A stretch of 64,000 nt of DNA from the NCBI GenBank assembly GCA_030841085.1, contig JAVEDP010000042.1, positions 1 through 64,000 of the forward strand, given 5' to 3'. The notes under the pieces are model-generated. The model did no database searches and was not told the DNA's origin. It worked only from the letters and a program-made list of their open reading frames with translations. Positions within the stretch are counted from its first letter, which is position 1. The number at the start of each line of letters is the position of its first letter. Below, in pieces: positions 2,319 to 61,148 of this stretch. This stretch comes from Pyrinomonadaceae bacterium. Its GTDB lineage: Bacteria; Acidobacteriota; Blastocatellia; Pyrinomonadales; Pyrinomonadaceae. Both the position numbers and the translations under genes were made by a program.

Positions 2319-2878
2319 GGAAGGCTCGCCTCAAAAGTCATGGGCCATAGCCGAAGGCCAACTTTCAAGTGCAGCAGTCAGTTGGCTTTCGCTCCAGCGG
2401 AGCGAGATGTTTATAGAACGCGCCACCGCCGAAGATTCTCCTCGCTCCAGCGGAGCGAAACATGAGTCGGTCTCCCTGCCAACGTGCGAAACATTGCGCT
2501 CCGCTGGAGCGCGAATCATCGGGTTCCGAGCCTTATCTATAAATATCTCGCCCCGCTGGGGCGAAGAGGCAGACAATGCTCTTTTGCACTCCGAAGTTGA
2601 ATCTGCGGAAGCCAAACCCGCTCCCTTCTTCGTTCTCGGGGCTTCTTGTGCTTCGCGGCTCCGCCGGCTTCCGTGCGGTAAGGCTCTGCCTTACCGATAA
2701 CCTGCCCTAAAGAACCTTCGCGAGGCTGAGCCTCGCGAAGGCTTTTAGTAAAGCTCGCCGGAAAGGCAGAGCCTTTCCGCAGGGGAGGCAGCATAGCTGC
2801 TCGGGTTTCTCTAAACTCATCTCAGATACGATTCACTTCCGATGGGAAGTATCTTGGGCCATAGCATAAAGATGTTTC
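2319..2878. repeat. REP-like palindrome cluster in a 560-bp gene-free spacer
   Basis: No gene seen. The spacer holds seven near-perfect palindromes of two kinds. Type 1 (2390-2404, 2443-2457, 2496-2512, 2548-2564) is cgctcc-agc-ggagcg or its gc-rich variant; the first and last copies are extended inverted copies sharing gagatRtttataga. Type 2 (2676-2696, 2715-2741, 2759-2779) is N-aaGGC-tct-GCCtt-N with arms of 9-12 bp. Such arrays usually mark dispersed REP elements. Confidence 0.8.
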
Positions 2879-3697
2879 CTAACTTTCCTCAACTCGGATC
2901 CAGCCATCGGCCGTGTGGCGAAAGTTTTCAATCTCAGCCCGGAAAAACGCGCCGCGCTCGGGCAGCCACTCCAATCGTTCGACAGAAATATTTGGACGCT
3001 CAACGCGGATGACATTGAACGAGTTCGCCTCACCCCGTCCGCGATCGGATGTTGCCGTTCCCGCCTGGACCACCAGCGCCGAGTGTCCCTTAATTTTGTA
3101 GCGTCTGGCGCTATGCGTCGTATGGCTGACGTGCAGGTGACCCGCGAGAAAAACGTCGGCGCCGCAATCCGCCAATCGCTCCATCGCCATGCGCGCGCGC
3201 CCGACGAGGTTGCGTTCGTCGTGTCCTTCGGGAATATCAAAAGGATGATGAGTGACTACGATCTTGACGACCTTAGGATCAAAAGCACAGAGCCGGTCGC
3301 GCATCCAATCAACCTGTTCCTGGTTGATTCGCCCACCCTTAATTGTGAACGAGCGCGCGGTATTGACTCCGAGCATCGCGATCTCATCGTCATAATATAA
3401 AGGTCTCAAGTTGCTGGTGATGTAGCGGCGATATTTGTGCAGTGGCTGAGCAAAACGCGTGAACACATTGTGCAACGGAACATCATGATTGCCGGGCACA
3501 ACAATTTGCGGTTGAGGCAACGCATCAAGAAATGCGCGCGCGGCTTTGAACTGATGAGTGCGCGCGCGTTGTGTCAGGTCCCCGGACACGGCAACAACGT
3601 CGGGCGCAACCTGACTAACGGTTTCAATCAGTGGGCCAACGACAGCCTCATCAACGCGACCGAAGTGAATATCAGAAAGGTGAACTATGGATCGCAT
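2879..3697 (-). CDS. Calcineurin-like metallophosphoesterase
   Basis: A 272-aa cytoplasmic protein with every metallophosphoesterase block in order: LSDIHFG, VSGDLTQ, VPGNHDVP, VVTHHPFD and AGHLHVSH. These supply the two-metal site residues (D, H, D, N, H, H, H). Related proteins hydrolyse cyclic nucleotides or other phosphodiesters (CpdA/Icc-like size and layout), but the substrate cannot be deduced. It lies downstream of and co-oriented with the diacylglycerol-kinase-like gene, 52 bp away across a long hairpin, so the two may be co-transcribed. Confidence 0.88.
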   Translation of the reverse strand: MRSIVHLSDIHFGRVDEAVVGPLIETVSQVAPDVVAVSGDLTQRARTHQFKAARAFLDALPQPQIVVPGNHDVPLHNVFTRFAQPLHKYRRYITSNLRPLYYDDEIAMLGVNTARSFTIKGGRINQEQVDWMRDRLCAFDPKVVKIVVTHHPFDIPEGHDERNLVGRARMAMERLADCGADVFLAGHLHVSHTTHSARRYKIKGHSALVVQAGTATSDRGRGEANSFNVIRVERPNISVERLEWLPERGAFFRAEIENFRHTADGWIRVEES

Positions 3698-3707
3698 GTT
3701 TTTCTAC

Positions 3708-3766
3708 TGTCCGATAAGCTTCAGCTTGTCGCTTCTCGTCAGCGACAAACTAAAGTTTATCGGACA
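3708..3766. repeat. 59-bp hairpin element (26-bp arms)
   Basis: Arms 3708-3733 and 3741-3766 are inverted copies with three mismatches (tgtccgataa... / ...ttatcggaca). A further half-copy (tgtcggaca) follows. The right arm runs into the 3' end of the diacylglycerol-kinase-like gene, so the last few codons (ending MSDKL) are element-derived. The shape suggests a small mobile palindrome or a bidirectional transcription stop. Confidence 0.7.
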
Positions 3767-4673
3767 TCTGAGGTTTGTCGGACAACGCCGGCGCCGTGAC
3801 TCGCAGTCTACCCGGCAGAACTCGATAGTGAAGCGGCGGCTCCATGATTGTTACCTCGCCATCCAGCGCCACCCGAATGCGTTTGTGTTTACTGTCAATC
3901 CAAATCTCTTTCGTGCACATTGCCAGGAAATCTTTTTCCTGATGCAGCCCGCCAAACAACGCGCGCCATGCCAGCCGAACGAGACCAATGCGGCCCGTTC
4001 GATTCGTCACGTACAGACTAAGATCGCCGGCGTCAAGACAGGTGCGCCCGCCAATGTTCAGCGTCTCCATCTGGTATTCATTGTTGCCGATAAAGACGAA
4101 CGGGGTGCGGCTGGCGAATTCTTTCCCGTCGACCTCCAGGCGAATATTGAGAAACGGATAGCGTCGCAGCACGGCAATCGCAGCCCAAACGTAAGCCGGC
4201 CACTTGCCCCAGCCCAGTCGCTGCTGTTTCTCGCGTTCGCGAATAATGCTTGGATAGAGCCCAAGGCTGGAGTTGTTAACGAACACGTGATCGTTGACTT
4301 CGCCGAGATCGACGTTGGCGACGTGACCCTTGATGATGGTGTCGACCGCTGCCTCAAGCTCGAGCGGAATGTGCAGGTCCTTGGCGAAATGGTTCATCGT
4401 CCCCAAAGGCAGAACGCCCAGCGTCTTTTTTCTATTGAGAAGTTGTGACGTGACCGAGTTGATTGTGCCGTCACCACCACCCGCGACAACGATGTCCGCA
4501 TCGCCAAGCGCAGCGCGTTTAGCAAGTTCGTTTATTTCGTGTCCGGTTTGCGCCAGCGCCACATTTGCGACCACACCGTCGCGCGCGAACAGTTCGCTGA
4601 GACGCTCGGCGAACGCGCTATCGGCTCCGGCGCCTGAGGTAGCATTGACGATCACTTCAATCTTCACGGGCAC
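3750..4673 (-). CDS. Diacylglycerol kinase / lipid kinase family (DagK-YegS type)
   Basis: A 307-aa protein with the DAGK catalytic domain: a Rossmann-like start (VIVNATSGAG), the nucleotide loop GGGDGTIN near residue 65, PLGTMNHFAKD near residue 100, and the C-terminal beta-sandwich half ending in GEVTIMEPP. Members phosphorylate diacylglycerol or related lipids at the inner membrane. The start is GTG at 4673. The extreme C-terminus reads into a hairpin repeat, so the natural stop may have been altered. Substrate uncertain (diacylglycerol, sphingoid or other lipid). Confidence 0.88.
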   Translation of the reverse strand: MPVKIEVIVNATSGAGADSAFAERLSELFARDGVVANVALAQTGHEINELAKRAALGDADIVVAGGGDGTINSVTSQLLNRKKTLGVLPLGTMNHFAKDLHIPLELEAAVDTIIKGHVANVDLGEVNDHVFVNNSSLGLYPSIIREREKQQRLGWGKWPAYVWAAIAVLRRYPFLNIRLEVDGKEFASRTPFVFIGNNEYQMETLNIGGRTCLDAGDLSLYVTNRTGRIGLVRLAWRALFGGLHQEKDFLAMCTKEIWIDSKHKRIRVALDGEVTIMEPPLHYRVLPGRLRVTAPALSDKPQMSDKL

Positions 4674-6308: not shown

Positions 6309-6440
6309 GGAAGCAGAAGTTAGAAGTCAGAGGTCGGAAGTCAGAGGTCGGAAGTCAGAGGTCAGAGGTCAGAGGTCAGAAGTCAGAGGTCAGAAGTCAG
6401 AGGGCGGAATTCAGAGGGGCGGAAATCGGAATTCAGAGGT
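6309..6440. repeat. Degenerate ~7-10 bp tandem repeat (gaagtcagaggtc words)
   Basis: Immediately after the RNB gene stop, words such as agaagtcagaggtc recur about ten times. Further on (6519-6604) are similar low-complexity words (gaaatgagaaatgg, gactgccgactgcc). No protein, RNA gene or spacer-repeat regularity of a CRISPR array is seen between 6309 and the tRNA at 6661. Confidence 0.75.
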
Positions 6441-11551: not shown

Positions 11552-13462
11552 CTAGCGGCCAATGCTCGATTGCAACTGAACTAACTGAGGAACCAGAGTC
11601 TCTACCTCAGATTTCGGTCTCTCGTCAGCTGGTGTGTTTTCCACTTGCTCGAAGTCAGACCTGTAGGTCATCACAGCAAGGCTAAGATAACGGTTTCCTT
11701 CCTGGACCATCAGTTTTCTGCTGATGAAGTCATCAAGAATGCGGCTTACGTCGTCCTCACTCATCTCCGCGTCCGACTGCTTCATAACATCCACGATTCT
11801 GGCGAGACTCTGCGCCTTGTCACAATACTCATAAATGCGAGCCGCCGTTCCGGTCACGATCCACTCCGGCCAAGTGGCGACGGCCCGGCTGTCGCGAATC
11901 AGGATTTCGCCATTCCGTCGTTCCGAAGTGAGGCCGTCCTTCCGTGTCTTCCACTCGCGCACGATGTCCTCCAAAACAGGCACGCAATCATCATTATCAA
12001 TCTCGTTCCTGTAATCGAAATCGAAATAGTAGATCAGGTCCGAGAGGGTCTGTTCATCAAAAGGATACACGTATTTGTAAAACTTGAACGGCCGCACATT
12101 GATAAGCCCCTTCTCTTCGGCGCGGTTGAAGTTAGGGCTGAAACGGTCCAGGCGAATTGGGCCACAGCCAGACGGCGGATCGAGATGGGTTATGATTTTT
12201 GCCGTCTCCAGATTCTGTCGGTAATCTTCCGGGCCTTCGCCGGGGAAGCCGTAGATGAGGTTCCAGTCCGCCAGCACGCCGAATTGCTTGCACCACTTCA
12301 GCGTTTGAATATTCATTAAGGAGTTGCTTCCCTTGGCCATTAGATCCAGAACGTGCGTACTCAGGTTCTCGATGCCGGCCTGGACGGTGACTCCTGCATC
12401 CGCCATTACTTTGATTTGATTCTTCTTCAGATTGGACTTCACTTCGCAGATGTAGTTAGCCTTCAGTCCCTGGCGGACAATTTCGGGTAGCAAATCTCTG
12501 AAATAACTAGGACTGAGAATATTATCTACGAACCGGACGATCCTGGTGCGATAACGCGCCAGCAGGCTGGAAATCTCATCGATGGTTCGCTCGACACTCT
12601 TGGTCCTGAATTCCATGGTCAAGCCGTTCAATCCGCAAAAGGTGCAGTGCGATTTCTCGCCCCACCAACAGCCTCTGGCGCTCTCCAACAGAATGGCTGG
12701 CTCTATCGTGGATTGCAACGGACTTCTCTGCACACGATCAAAGTAGTCGTCGTAGTCGGGAATCGGCAGCTCGTCGAGATCTTCCAGCAGCCGCGCAGAG
12801 CCGGCGTACACCGCGGCTCCATTCTCCCTGTGGACCACCCCGGGCAGTCCCTTCACCGGATGGTGATACTTCAGACGCTTCACCAATTCCGGGAAGGAGT
12901 CGTCCGCCTCGCCCGCGCAAACAAAATCGACGAAGGGAAAACAACGGAGCAGAGTGATTCCCATAATGTCTTCACAGTTTGCCCCGCCGAAGACAATTGC
13001 CTTATCCGGGAACTGCTGCTTGACCAGACGGGCCATCGCCAGGCTGGCCAGATTTTGCTCGAAGAGCGAAGTGAAGCCGATGATGTCATAGGTTTGCCAG
13101 GAAATAGTGTCGAGGCAAAACTGCAGGAAAACCGGTACCGAACTTCTAAGCTGTTCGAGTCTGGCTGAGGTATCAGGAGCGGCGCAATTGGAGGCAGCAA
13201 TCTCCCGGTAGTATTCTTCGTCGGATGGCAAGGCGGCGCCGAAGACCGACCTCGCAAATAATTGCTCACCTCCAAGAATTCCGGACGTGCGGAGCATGAA
13301 TTGGTAATTCTCGGACCCGATCATTTCCGCAAAGGTGAAGTTTAGATTTTGAACGTCACAGGGGATACCGTCTTGCTGCAGTCGACTCTTGAAAAGCCCT
13401 AACGCGAGTGAGGGAGAATCGAGCGCGGCAAACGGCATGTTGATGAGCAAAACTCGAGTCAT
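11552..13462 (-). CDS. RiPP-maturation radical SAM protein (B12-type, rSAM_ocin_1-like)
   Basis: A 636-aa enzyme. The N-terminal ~190 residues form a cobalamin-binding-like fold (VLLINMPF, SLALGLFKSRL, IIGFTSLFEQN). The radical SAM core begins near residue 260 with ESARGCWWGEKSHCTFCGLN, the CxxxxxxxCxxC variant typical of RiPP radical SAM C-methyltransferase-like proteins, followed by VRFVDNIL and IYGFPGEGPEDY. A C-terminal winged-helix-like region follows. Start has ggagg six nt upstream. It is third in a precursor-ATP-grasp-rSAM operon (28-bp gap), so its substrate is presumably the Asp-Pro-Lys repeat peptide encoded upstream. Confidence 0.85.
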   Translation of the reverse strand: MTRVLLINMPFAALDSPSLALGLFKSRLQQDGIPCDVQNLNFTFAEMIGSENYQFMLRTSGILGGEQLFARSVFGAALPSDEEYYREIAASNCAAPDTSARLEQLRSSVPVFLQFCLDTISWQTYDIIGFTSLFEQNLASLAMARLVKQQFPDKAIVFGGANCEDIMGITLLRCFPFVDFVCAGEADDSFPELVKRLKYHHPVKGLPGVVHRENGAAVYAGSARLLEDLDELPIPDYDDYFDRVQRSPLQSTIEPAILLESARGCWWGEKSHCTFCGLNGLTMEFRTKSVERTIDEISSLLARYRTRIVRFVDNILSPSYFRDLLPEIVRQGLKANYICEVKSNLKKNQIKVMADAGVTVQAGIENLSTHVLDLMAKGSNSLMNIQTLKWCKQFGVLADWNLIYGFPGEGPEDYRQNLETAKIITHLDPPSGCGPIRLDRFSPNFNRAEEKGLINVRPFKFYKYVYPFDEQTLSDLIYYFDFDYRNEIDNDDCVPVLEDIVREWKTRKDGLTSERRNGEILIRDSRAVATWPEWIVTGTAARIYEYCDKAQSLARIVDVMKQSDAEMSEDDVSRILDDFISRKLMVQEGNRYLSLAVMTYRSDFEQVENTPADERPKSEVETLVPQLVQLQSSIGR

Positions 13463-13490
13463 GCCGAACCTCCATTTCCAGCACCGCTTT

Positions 13491-14453
13491 CTACCGCATC
13501 GCCTTAGCTTGACGCGACGGTTTGGCGGTCCTCAGATGGTCAGCCATAGCCTCGGCGATCGGCTGACCTGTCCGATCCTCGAGGTAGATGAACTCTCCAT
13601 CCGGATTGATTTCAAAAAACACGTACTCTCCATCCGGAGTCACGCGAAAATCAATGCCTCCGAACTCGAGCCCGAGTCTCTCCATGAAGGTGAGGATTTT
13701 TGTCTCCAACGCCGGCGGCAGGTCATGTGGACGGCAAGGGATTTCGGTCATCCTAAACCTGTAGTCAACACCCTCAAGATGCTCGATGTCGAACTCAGTA
13801 GCGAAAACTTTCTCCCCGATCACCGTTACTCGTACGTCGCTTAGGCCCGGCACCAGGGTCTGAAAGATCACCGGCGCATGCCGCAGGTTGGGTAGCATCG
13901 TGAGATCTTCATCTCGCAAGATTCTCGTCGGACGCCAAACCAGGGCCCGCTGATTGAATGCCTTGTAAATTACTCGGTGATCGTGTTTCTCCCAGAACTG
14001 CAATAGATCAGCGGGCGAGTTGGTGATCAAGGTTTCTGGAATGCTGAAACCTTCTTCTCCGGCGAGCTTCAGCTGGAGCGCTTTATATTCAGCTGCTGAA
14101 TCGTTATGAATGTCGTTTACCCATAAAGTCTCACAACATTCCAACATGCCATATAAAGCACTGATGCATTCCTGAAACGCAAACCCCCGCGCCTGCGGAT
14201 CCGCGATGCGAGGATCGATCTCCATTGGCTGAGGGCGTCGCCACCAGAAACTCTTGATGTCCTGCAAATGGATGCGCCGGCTGTCCTGTGTCAGCCGCAG
14301 GTCAGTAGCACCATTGCCAAAGCTCCCGGTTAGGGACACTGAGGTCGGAAAGGTCGACGTATCAAAGACGAAAAACTCTTCCGCATGACGTCTCAGAATA
14401 TCGGCGACCTTTACGGTGTGCGCATCATCTTCTTTGGCGCAGATCAGGATCAT
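13491..14453 (-). CDS. MvdD-like ATP-grasp RiPP ligase
   Basis: A 320-aa ATP-grasp protein. The N-terminal pre-grasp domain includes FWWRRPQP; the ATP-binding half shows VIYKAFNQ, APVIFQTLVPGLSDVRVTVIG, GLEFGGIDFRV and the metal-binding FFEINPDGEFIYLE. This order is that of MvdD/microviridin-type ligases, which join Asp/Glu side chains to Lys, Ser or Thr as omega-amides or omega-esters. It lies 20 bp after the precursor gene and 28 bp before the rSAM gene. Its family chemistry matches a substrate made of Asp and Lys. Confidence 0.88.
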   Translation of the reverse strand: MILICAKEDDAHTVKVADILRRHAEEFFVFDTSTFPTSVSLTGSFGNGATDLRLTQDSRRIHLQDIKSFWWRRPQPMEIDPRIADPQARGFAFQECISALYGMLECCETLWVNDIHNDSAAEYKALQLKLAGEEGFSIPETLITNSPADLLQFWEKHDHRVIYKAFNQRALVWRPTRILRDEDLTMLPNLRHAPVIFQTLVPGLSDVRVTVIGEKVFATEFDIEHLEGVDYRFRMTEIPCRPHDLPPALETKILTFMERLGLEFGGIDFRVTPDGEYVFFEINPDGEFIYLEDRTGQPIAEAMADHLRTAKPSRQAKAMR

Positions 14454-14472
14454 AAGCTCAAGAATCCGCGTC

Positions 14473-15600
14473 CTAATACGGCCAATTGGTAGTCAGAATG
14501 AAAGGTCCCCACGGTCCGGGATCCTCGCCCTTGGGATCGTATTTCGGGTCCCATTTGGGATCAGCCTTTGGATCGGTATGCTTCGGATCCGTGTACTTAG
14601 GATCCGAGTTCTTCGGGTCATACTTTGGATCCTTATACTTGGGATCCGCATACTTCGGATCCGCCTGTTTGGGATCGTACTTTGGATCGTTAAACTTAGG
14701 ATCCGAGTTCTTCGGGTCATATTTTGGATCCCTATACTTAGGATCCGAATACTTTGGATCCGCTTGCTTGGGATCGTACTTAGGATCCGAATACTTCGGA
14801 TCGGCTTGCTTAGGGTCATACTTAGGATCCGAATACTTCGGATCCGCTTGCTTGGGATCAAACTTAGGATCGATCTGTTTCGGCTGCTGGCCAGCCCCTC
14901 GCTCAAACCCTTCAATTGGTCCGGGTCCGGGTCCGGGATCGCCCTTCGGATCGCCCTTCGGATCGAACTTCGGATCGGAAGTCTTCGGATCGAACTGCTT
15001 GGGGTCGAACTTCGGGTCAGAAGTCTTGGGATCAAATTGCTTCGGGTCAGAGATTTTTGGATCGAACTGCTTGGGATCAGAAGTCTTGGGATCGAATTGC
15101 TTCGGGTCAGAGATCTTGGGATCGAACTGCTTCGGATCAGAAGTTTTGGGATCGAACTGCTTCGGATCAGAGATCTTGGGATCGAATTGTTTCGGATCAA
15201 ATTTCGGATCGGAAACCTTGGGATCGAATTGCTTCGGATCAAACTTCGGATCGAACCGTTTCTGATCCACCCTCTTCAAGGCCGAGGCCTGGAGTATCAA
15301 CTTGACGGGCGAATCGGGTGCCAGCCTGACACTGTAGCTGCTCTCGCCGGACGTGTCCTCGAATACCTGCGAGTGCTCGGCTACGTCGGCGGCTCTAAGC
15401 TCGATGGCCTGCTCGATTCCGGGTGTGTCGGAAGGAATCAGCAAAATCAACTTTCCGGCTTCGTCGGATTTTCTGATTCTCCCGACTAACTCAACATCGG
15501 GGGCCTCGGTTTTTCGAGGCTCGAAAGGTTTACTTTCGCTGAGGACCTCTTCAAATGTTTTGGGTTTCGGTTCTGATGGCTCTTCGGGTTTCTTGGCCAT
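14473..15600 (-). CDS. Giant Asp-Pro-Lys repeat RiPP precursor (candidate graspetide)
   Basis: A 375-aa protein with start supported by aaaggag 8 nt upstream. Residues ~1-105 are a leader: an acidic/Pro-rich tag, then PDVELVGRIRKSDEAGKLIL and a helix-strand segment. The remainder is almost wholly repeats: about 22 copies in block 1 (QFDPK/TSDPK alternation), a PGPGPGP hinge with an Arg/Gly stretch, then about 25 copies in block 2 (QADPKYSDPKYDPK type), ending GPWGPFILTTNWPY. Each unit offers one Asp carboxylate and one Lys amine. Directly upstream of an MvdD-like ligase and a RiPP rSAM enzyme, it is best read as their substrate. A non-RiPP structural repeat protein is the alternative. Confidence 0.8.
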   Translation of the reverse strand: MAKKPEEPSEPKPKTFEEVLSESKPFEPRKTEAPDVELVGRIRKSDEAGKLILLIPSDTPGIEQAIELRAADVAEHSQVFEDTSGESSYSVRLAPDSPVKLILQASALKRVDQKRFDPKFDPKQFDPKVSDPKFDPKQFDPKISDPKQFDPKTSDPKQFDPKISDPKQFDPKTSDPKQFDPKISDPKQFDPKTSDPKFDPKQFDPKTSDPKFDPKGDPKGDPGPGPGPIEGFERGAGQQPKQIDPKFDPKQADPKYSDPKYDPKQADPKYSDPKYDPKQADPKYSDPKYRDPKYDPKNSDPKFNDPKYDPKQADPKYADPKYKDPKYDPKNSDPKYTDPKHTDPKADPKWDPKYDPKGEDPGPWGPFILTTNWPY

Positions 15601-59828: not shown

Positions 59829-59913
59829 GTCCAAAGTCCAAAGTCCAATGTCTGCCTATCCAATCGCAGTTTTGGGGGTTTCGACTTTGGACTTTGGACT
59901 TTGGACTTTGGAC
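59829..59913. repeat. Inverted runs of tccaaag / ctttgga
   Basis: Three copies of tccaaag on one side and four of ctttgga on the other lie between convergent genes. Forms a long hairpin, likely a bidirectional terminator. Confidence 0.6.
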
Positions 59914-61148
59914 TAACTCAAAGCGACCTCTTCGACTCCTGCAATCAGTCGATCGATTTCGTCTTCCGTCGTATAGCAGGCGCAACCGGCGCGCACCAAA
60001 CCTTCCGCACCAAGCCCAAGGCGTTCCACGACAGTCGCCGCGTAAAAGTCTCCGTGCGAAAGAAACAGCCCGCGTGTTGCCAACCGGCGAGAAACTTCAG
60101 TTGAAGCGACACCGTCAACGGTGAAAGCGACGGTTGGTGTTCGCGGCAAGTCCGGCGGTGGTCCATAAAGGCGAACGCCATTTATCGGCGCCAACCCATT
60201 CCACAGTCTTTCTGTCAACGCCGCACTGCGCCGATGCAATTCGTCATAAGCATTCGTCAATCGTTCGCGCCTTGTGCCCGCTGTCGAGCTTGCTGTCGCG
60301 AGTGATGCCAGGAAATCGATAGCCGCGGCCGTGCCTACGATCCCTTCATGATTCTGCGTTCCCGTCTCAACACTTTCCGGCGCGGTGTCGGGCGCGGGGA
60401 TTAGTTTGGGGAAGTCGATCGATTCGAGCAAACGGACTTTGCCAAACAGCACACCTTCGTGTGGGCCATAAAATTTGTATGCCGACATGCCGAGAAAGTC
60501 GCAGTCGAGGGCCTGAACGTCGACGAGCGCGTGCGGCACGTAATGAACAGCATCCACAAAAACGAGCGCGCCGACAGAACGCGCGAGGTTAATTGCGCGC
60601 GCGAGGTCATTAATTGTACCCAGCGCGTTTGAGGCGGCGCCGATTGCAATCAGCTTCGTGCGTTTTGTTACTGACTGCTCAAAACTTTGCCAGTCGAGCT
60701 GTCCGGTCTGCGGCTCCATTCTCACAATTTCCAAATTGATTCCGCGTTCACTCTTCAAATAATGCCAGGGCGCCACGTTCGCGTGATGATCCAGTTCAGT
60801 CACAACGATTTCATCGCCAGGCTGCAACGTCTTTCCCAACGCACGTGCCAGGTTAAATACCAGCGTCGTCATGTTGGCGCCAAAGGCGATTTCTTTTGGC
60901 GAAGCGTTCAAAAACTCGGCACAGGTTTCGCGCGCAATCTCAATCGCGGCGTCAGTTTCCTCGCTGGTCGGGTAAGCCCAGTGCGTGTTCGCGTTTTGGT
61001 TGTAGAGATAATCAGACATTGCCGCAACAACCTGATGCGGAACCTGTGTGCCGCCGGGTCCGTCGAAATATGCGACCGGATGGTTGTTGTGCGTGCGTTT
61101 GAGCGCGGGAAAGTTTGCGCGGATGTCGGCGATTGAAGCTGTTGTCAT
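59913..61148 (-). CDS. Class-V PLP aminotransferase, cysteine-desulfurase-like (VC1184-type)
   Basis: A 411-aa PLP enzyme: YFDGPGGTQVP, DHHANVAPW, FVDAVHYVPH, PLP lysine in GMSAYKFYGPHEG and C-terminal RAGCACYTTEDEID. The catalytic Cys loop of SufS/IscS is absent from its usual position, so it may be a lyase/desulfurase-like enzyme of different specificity. Convergent with hom. Confidence 0.88.
   Translation of the reverse strand: MTTASIADIRANFPALKRTHNNHPVAYFDGPGGTQVPHQVVAAMSDYLYNQNANTHWAYPTSEETDAAIEIARETCAEFLNASPKEIAFGANMTTLVFNLARALGKTLQPGDEIVVTELDHHANVAPWHYLKSERGINLEIVRMEPQTGQLDWQSFEQSVTKRTKLIAIGAASNALGTINDLARAINLARSVGALVFVDAVHYVPHALVDVQALDCDFLGMSAYKFYGPHEGVLFGKVRLLESIDFPKLIPAPDTAPESVETGTQNHEGIVGTAAAIDFLASLATASSTAGTRRERLTNAYDELHRRSAALTERLWNGLAPINGVRLYGPPPDLPRTPTVAFTVDGVASTEVSRRLATRGLFLSHGDFYAATVVERLGLGAEGLVRAGCACYTTEDEIDRLIAGVEEVALS

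Follow-up and report, generated by a model that had tools for sequence, protein, structure and literature searches.

What might a graspetide-type ligase and a radical SAM enzyme make from a protein built largely of repeated Asp-Pro-Lys (DPK) units? This question is raised by a three-gene operon on the minus strand of a 64,000-nucleotide stretch of DNA from a soil bacterium of the Pyrinomonadaceae (contig JAVEDP010000042.1, positions 1 to 64,000; hereafter the window). The genes follow one another in the order P0001, P0002 and P0003, separated by 19 and 28 nt. P0001 (14473..15600, minus strand) encodes a 375-aa DPK-repeat protein, the proposed substrate, and its open reading frame has a GGAG-type ribosome-binding site just upstream. 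P0002 (13491..14453, minus strand) encodes a 320-aa ATP-grasp ligase of the graspetide-synthetase type, and P0003 (11552..13462, minus strand) encodes a 636-aa B12-binding radical SAM protein. A sequence-only reading of this DNA had already placed a ligase, a 375-aa repeat ORF and a radical SAM gene side by side at 11552-15600; these coordinates were exact and the operon is tight. The source genome contains a single ligase of the P0002 type and a single radical SAM enzyme of the P0003 type. Promoter- and terminator-like sites around the operon occurred at no more than chance level. Heptamer tandem repeats were also seen right after or near gene ends at 6310-6417 (GAAGTCA, 13 copies) and 59879-59914 (TTTGGAC, five copies) of the window.

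P0001 carries exactly 47 DPK units, in agreement with the earlier estimate of about 47, together with two DPG units. The step from one unit to the next is five residues in 31 cases and four residues in 14, with one 27-residue step over a linker; shuffled versions of the protein contained a mean of 1.6 DPK and a maximum of 7. Spacing and composition delimit two blocks, both on the minus strand. Block 1 (14944..15252) comprises 22 units, mostly DPKQF, DPKTS or DPKIS, and block 2 (14530..14871) comprises 25 units, mostly DPKQA, DPKYS or DPKY; between them lies a 24-residue Gly/Pro-rich linker, GDPGPGPGPIEGFERGAGQQPKQI (14872..14943, minus strand). The 47 units are written in 11 different 9-nt codings that use all four Pro codons, which argues that the motif is maintained at the level of protein rather than reflecting just a recent DNA expansion. 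Simple DNA expansion as the sole origin of the array was ruled out, as the codons vary between units. The array residues include 49 Lys, 50 acidic residues and 19 Ser/Thr, and thus show a graspetide trait, namely a protein adjoining the ligase whose repeated motif contains both donor and acceptor residues. Its register is KxxD/KxD, offering Lys-to-acid spacings of +2, +3, +7 and +8, and KxxxD is absent (acid at +4 from 0 of 49 Lys, z = -4.5).

Residues 1-116 (15253..15600, minus strand) are non-repetitive and probably form a recognition or leader domain; the product is therefore better termed a protein than a peptide, the word used in the sequence-only reading. A weak single-sequence AlphaFold model (mean pLDDT 57.5) predicted a beta-rich fold for this region, with strands at 36-44, 51-56, 63-68, 77-81 and 87-93. 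By eye, the region has no PFFARFL; the leader motif of the Phhx(1,2)h / PFFARFL-like type is missing from about half of known graspetide precursors. No homologues of the N-terminal region were found in 162 genomes of the class, and a DNA pattern search (DPK-x2-DPK-x2-DPK) of the same 162 genomes gave 22 matches in the window, one elsewhere (in G100, outside any listed ORF) and no further DPK array. A search of plasmids with P0001 returned partial, compositional DP-rich matches only, the best of which had no such enzymes nearby. DP-rich proteins without ligase or radical SAM enzymes do exist, for example on a Dietzia plasmid. The earlier reading had proposed that DPK proteins lacking these neighbours would count against it; this check gave no disproof, with outside matches that were weak (mostly partial alignments of approximately 34% identity) and no second DPK array in the class.

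The assignment of P0002 draws on profile matches, structural relatives and invariant residues. It matched PF21068, the MvdD pre-ATP-grasp domain, with 57.9 bits (cut-off 27). The best NCBIfam model was TIGR04187, with 243.8 bits against a cut-off of 350, followed by TIGR04184 (196.1 against 475) and TIGR04185 (188.9 against 425); the score for TIGR04192, the grasp-with-SPASM ligase, was 66.7 against 230. P0002 is a relative of the TIGR04187, TIGR04184 and TIGR04185 families and not a named member. The former label of MvdD was loose for the enzyme, at 196 bits against the MvdD equivalog cut-off of 475. Its relatives in the PDB by sequence are the graspetide-type ligases 7m4s, 5ig8 and 9bou, and the catalytic residues are intact, with K124, K164, R208, D268, E281 and N283 invariant across nine homologues.

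The company kept by relatives of P0002 was informative. Nearest to P0002 in the ligase tree are two enzymes, from the same genus (L027, genome G004) and the same family (L223). The L027 ligase is 37% identical to P0002 and starts 26 nt after the gene for an astacin-type protease whose C-terminus consists of about ten TLKF[RS]DDP repeats; at L223, a subtilase with KRKxxDD repeats in its tail precedes the ligase by 78 nt. The L027 protease (2740-4134) also scored 324.7 bits with the NCBIfam model for LegP-type zinc metalloproteases (cut-off 300). Within the tree set, the ligase with the highest plain identity to P0002 is that of L028 (38%), which adjoins ordinary short GG-leader peptides. In a neighbouring clade (L038, L039, L040, L041, L042, L130 and L222) the partners are long Lys/Glu/Asp proteins or tails, some standing alone and others joined to M6, M43 or kelch-type domains. 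These ligases usually occur with a truncated ATP-grasp partner, and several of the partner proteins share the C-terminal motif HFIxxxxRPDL, a follower that is absent from P0001. In all, ten loci of ligase relatives have a Lys/acid-rich partner, the remainder of the partner protein being unrelated from case to case (protease, kelch-type or none). An unrooted ligase tree separated the 11 rows from Lys/acid-repeat loci, the window included, from 33 others with support of 97/99.

When matched Lys/acid density was scored as the lesser of Lys and acidic residues per 60 aa, 1114 background ORFs had a 99th percentile of approximately 11; the window array reached 12, and the top four proteins were all ligase-linked. 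If the lowest-entropy window is chosen instead, other low-complexity stretches take precedence and the arrays of L223, L041 and L042 go undetected. The arrays of L130, L027, L222, L040 and L038 showed enrichment of KxxxD/E spacing, as did that of L223 to a lesser degree; the DPK array has none. A phylum-wide profile search revealed no additional locus with a Lys/acid array. Among other ATP-grasp loci, the short precursors at L126, L128, L129 and L224 contain repeats of TETxT..SDxD or of the related motif YGETxxTxTREGADQ, and a 136-aa protein with duplicated DTGRPPDNKxKSGSDHDKREPGD segments adjoins the ligase at L132 (5142-5552).

P0003 is a full-length member of TIGR03975 (rSAM_ocin_1), with 646.3 bits over model positions 1-606 (cut-off 281.85). 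Pfam gave a Radical_SAM match and a weak B12-binding match, and the cluster motif C265-X7-C273-X2-C276 (12635..12670, minus strand) has its CX7CX2C pattern in 70 of 71 homologues. Its role as a RiPP C-methyltransferase is predicted from the TIGR03975 family name. In the tree, P0003 falls in a 12-row clade (support 99) in which every member with identified neighbours has repeat or tail proteins alongside, including subtilases with Pro-rich tails (L095, L161 and L073) and Gly/Tyr/DPY repeat proteins (L096). Relatives without a ligase likewise adjoin repeat proteins, many of them Pro-rich, such as S8 proteases with KPI, PPI or RGPSI tails and proteins with PEVAP or EVGRR..P repeats; more distant relatives adjoin PEVAP, EVGRR and CTIRACT repeat proteins. 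Repetitive same-strand ORFs made up 10 of 109 within 400 nt of radical SAM genes compared with 8 of 502 farther away (odds ratio 6.2, P = 2.7e-4). An identical locus on a 27,187-base contig in two genomes (G016:C31 and G094:C22), probably shared or contaminating, was counted once. Several neighbourhoods of TIGR03975 enzymes had features of their own. L102, L104 and L098 combine a common leader (MAD..KTLEMRVAELEDKL) with CTIRACT or QQPC repeats and are probably a distinct RiPP family. Repeat proteins of the PIPEVAP / PEVVVEVAPEIKP type lie near the enzyme at L111, L112, L180, L181 and L080, and at the first three of these loci a homologous gene of approximately 190-200 aa, 2OG-oxygenase-like in appearance, lies upstream.

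Besides the window, a single further locus was found to pair the ligase with the radical SAM enzyme. This is L130 in genome G291, from another family of the same phylum, where an M43 protease with a tail of ten or more IKKxEPD units is followed by a truncated ATP-grasp, an ATP-grasp and a radical SAM gene. The L130 radical SAM enzyme is 48-50% identical to P0003 and its sister in the tree (SH-aLRT 98). Ligase-linked arrays have matched Lys and acidic residues, whereas the radical SAM-only arrays of the P0003 clade do not and several are Pro-rich; at the window and L130, which have both enzymes, the arrays are Pro-containing as well as Lys/acid-matched, a pattern seen on few loci. The core of the sequence-only reading, a RiPP-type ATP-grasp/radical SAM operon whose probable substrate is the repeat protein, thus gained comparative support from the operon logic of G291 and the recurrence of analogous substrates.

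Among known systems the closest parallel is corallotide (graspetide group 15; Corallococcus CorA/CorB/CorC/CorD), reported in 2026, in which a TIGR04187-type ligase forms five Lys-Asp lactams in KxxxD motifs of a repeat precursor of approximately 22 kDa (PMC13097080). A second enzyme, a 2OG-Fe oxygenase, acts on the same repeat unit by Lys 5-hydroxylation, and the core aggregated once the N-terminal domain was removed (PMC13097080). The window likewise has a large putative precursor with an N-terminal domain and C-terminal repeats, a ligase closest to TIGR04187 and a predicted second tailoring enzyme, although its lactams are a prediction. It differs in its 47 DPK units with zero KxxxD, in having a radical SAM enzyme in place of the 2OG-Fe oxygenase and beta-lactamase-like neighbours, and in its leader, which is weakly predicted to be beta-rich and is unrelated to the helical domain of corallotide. 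The earlier statement that the graspetide cores known so far are much shorter and of lower regularity is out of date because corallotide and the long repeating precursors of groups 34 and 35 have since been reported, along with protease-neighbour groups (PMC13097080). Microviridin/plesiocin-type systems (MvdD, MvdC and PsnB) have a homologous ligase with the catalytic residues conserved, and plesiocin and AMdnA resemble P0001 in their tandem repeated cores. Their precursors, however, are short with a PFFARFL-type leader, and P0002 scores far under the MvdD/MvdC equivalog cut-offs and lies outside the clade of microviridin-type loci. Grasp-with-SPASM loci also join an ATP-grasp (TIGR04192) to a radical SAM enzyme, but P0003 is of the B12-binding class rather than SPASM; for TIGR03975 systems, ATP-grasp pairing was seen in just one other genome here.

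The relatives of P0002 also recall two peptidase-linked ATP-grasp branches, 7 and 8, in the survey of Makarova et al. 2022. For these, neighbours such as YscW, truncated ATP-grasps and peptidases of unrelated families were described, but no precursors; the peptidases were suggested to release peptides from other proteins (PMC8939145). L027, with its YscW neighbour, is like branch 7, and the Lys/Glu clade with its truncated partner is like branch 8; branch-type neighbours were seen at L027, L130 and L041, and unrelated peptidase families are common to both sets. Where the survey lists no precursor, the peptidases of the relatives here themselves bear repeat tails. The window locus, unlike branches 7 and 8, has no peptidase, YscW or truncated ATP-grasp. 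A literature search for peptidase-fused graspetide precursors returned nothing on point.

Taken together, these data make it probable that the operon yields a multiply modified repeat protein, with Lys-Asp lactams installed by P0002 and C-methylation by P0003 on the DPK array. The N-terminal region of P0001 would be bound by the enzymes and the two blocks, with their equal Lys and Asp, would be the substrate. By analogy with family chemistry and corallotide, P0002 would activate Asp side chains with ATP and join them to nearby Lys side chains, giving a ladder-like series of isopeptide lactams along the array. Each ring would probably link Lys(i) to Asp(i+3) or (i+2), or else span further, to i+7 or i+8; because graspetide donors usually precede acceptors (PMC12291112), Lys(i)-Asp(i+3) would be the preferred first choice. 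P0003 may methylate unreactive carbons of the array, the Pro-containing motif being the most likely site. Rather than a small antibiotic, this would give a tail or rod that is long, rigid and resistant to proteases; a fibre-like polymer, as once suggested, is speculation, for which the aggregation of the corallotide core is at most suggestive. Several points speak against this reading: the array has no KxxxD, which is the spacing of the proven corallotide ring and is enriched in the other ligase-linked arrays; the N-terminal region of P0001 has no detectable homologue and lacks the HFIxxxxRPDL follower; the L028 ligase serves short peptides; one further locus alone was found to have both enzymes; and promoter- and terminator-like sites do not exceed chance.

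Several other explanations were weighed. The one to which we give most room, while still holding it unlikely, is that P0002 acts on the array and P0003 acts on another residue or substrate or installs a non-methyl change such as a crosslink or epimerisation. TIGR03975 members adjoin very unlike repeats (Cys-, Pro- and Gly/Tyr-rich), and a literature search on their function returned nothing on point and no characterised member; against this stand the repeat or tail proteins beside those members of the 12-member clade whose neighbours were identified, and the sister locus L130, which keeps ligase and radical SAM together. It is also improbable that the array stays unmodified, as a disordered linker or a metal- or surface-binding tail, with the enzymes modifying the N-terminal region or something else. 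Low-complexity D/P/K would suit such a tail, the N-terminal region lacked homologues in the 162 class genomes, and DP-rich proteins such as that on the Dietzia plasmid do without these enzymes, yet Lys/acid-rich partners recur at ten loci of ligase relatives in otherwise unrelated proteins.

Microviridin-type ligases form both esters and amides, and block 1 offers TSDPK and ISDPK spacers. Even so, we regard it as quite improbable that P0002 forms ester rings through spacer Ser/Thr (TS, YS) instead of Lys-Asp lactams, as the 19 Ser/Thr are outnumbered by Lys and acidic residues, in block 2 the spacers consist mainly of Tyr, Gln and Ala, and L130, L223, L040 and L222 have related arrays that are built on lysine. 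That a repeat gene lies beside two RiPP enzymes by chance would fit a DPK array seen in just one genome of the class, but the same three-part logic with an unrelated repeat in G291 and the enrichment of repeats around radical SAM relatives leave it very little credence.

Beyond the lactam-bridged, methylated array favoured here for the operon, we lean towards a wider reading in which this ligase clade, in some cases with a B12 radical SAM enzyme, staples long Lys/Asp-Glu tails on or beside whole proteins (astacin, subtilase, M43/M6 metalloproteases and a kelch-type protein) and not small peptides. These tails would be the precursors that the survey lacks for branches 7 and 8, and the DPK operon the most regular stand-alone case. 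Shared neighbours suggest this mapping, by which peptidase-fused tails may be the precursors missing from the survey (PMC8939145), and it may already overlap with the protease-neighbour groups of PMC13097080. As a simple alternative to the survey's proposal of peptide release from other proteins by the peptidases (PMC8939145), the substrate would be a tail of the peptidase or repeat protein itself. That a graspetide-type ligase acts on a repeated precursor is already known, and the idea is not wholly new; what is new is the 47-unit DPK array, its register, its B12 radical SAM partner and the suggestion of peptidase-fused tails as branch 7/8 precursors. If this is true, RiPP enzymes build crosslinked protein tails or rods, possibly with dozens of staples per chain, and the ligase/radical SAM pair would supply protein materials and tags that are rigid and protease-resistant. 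The repeated occurrence of these enzyme relatives beside proteins with differing repeat tails thus suggests a little-known way to decorate proteins with crosslinked repeat tails.
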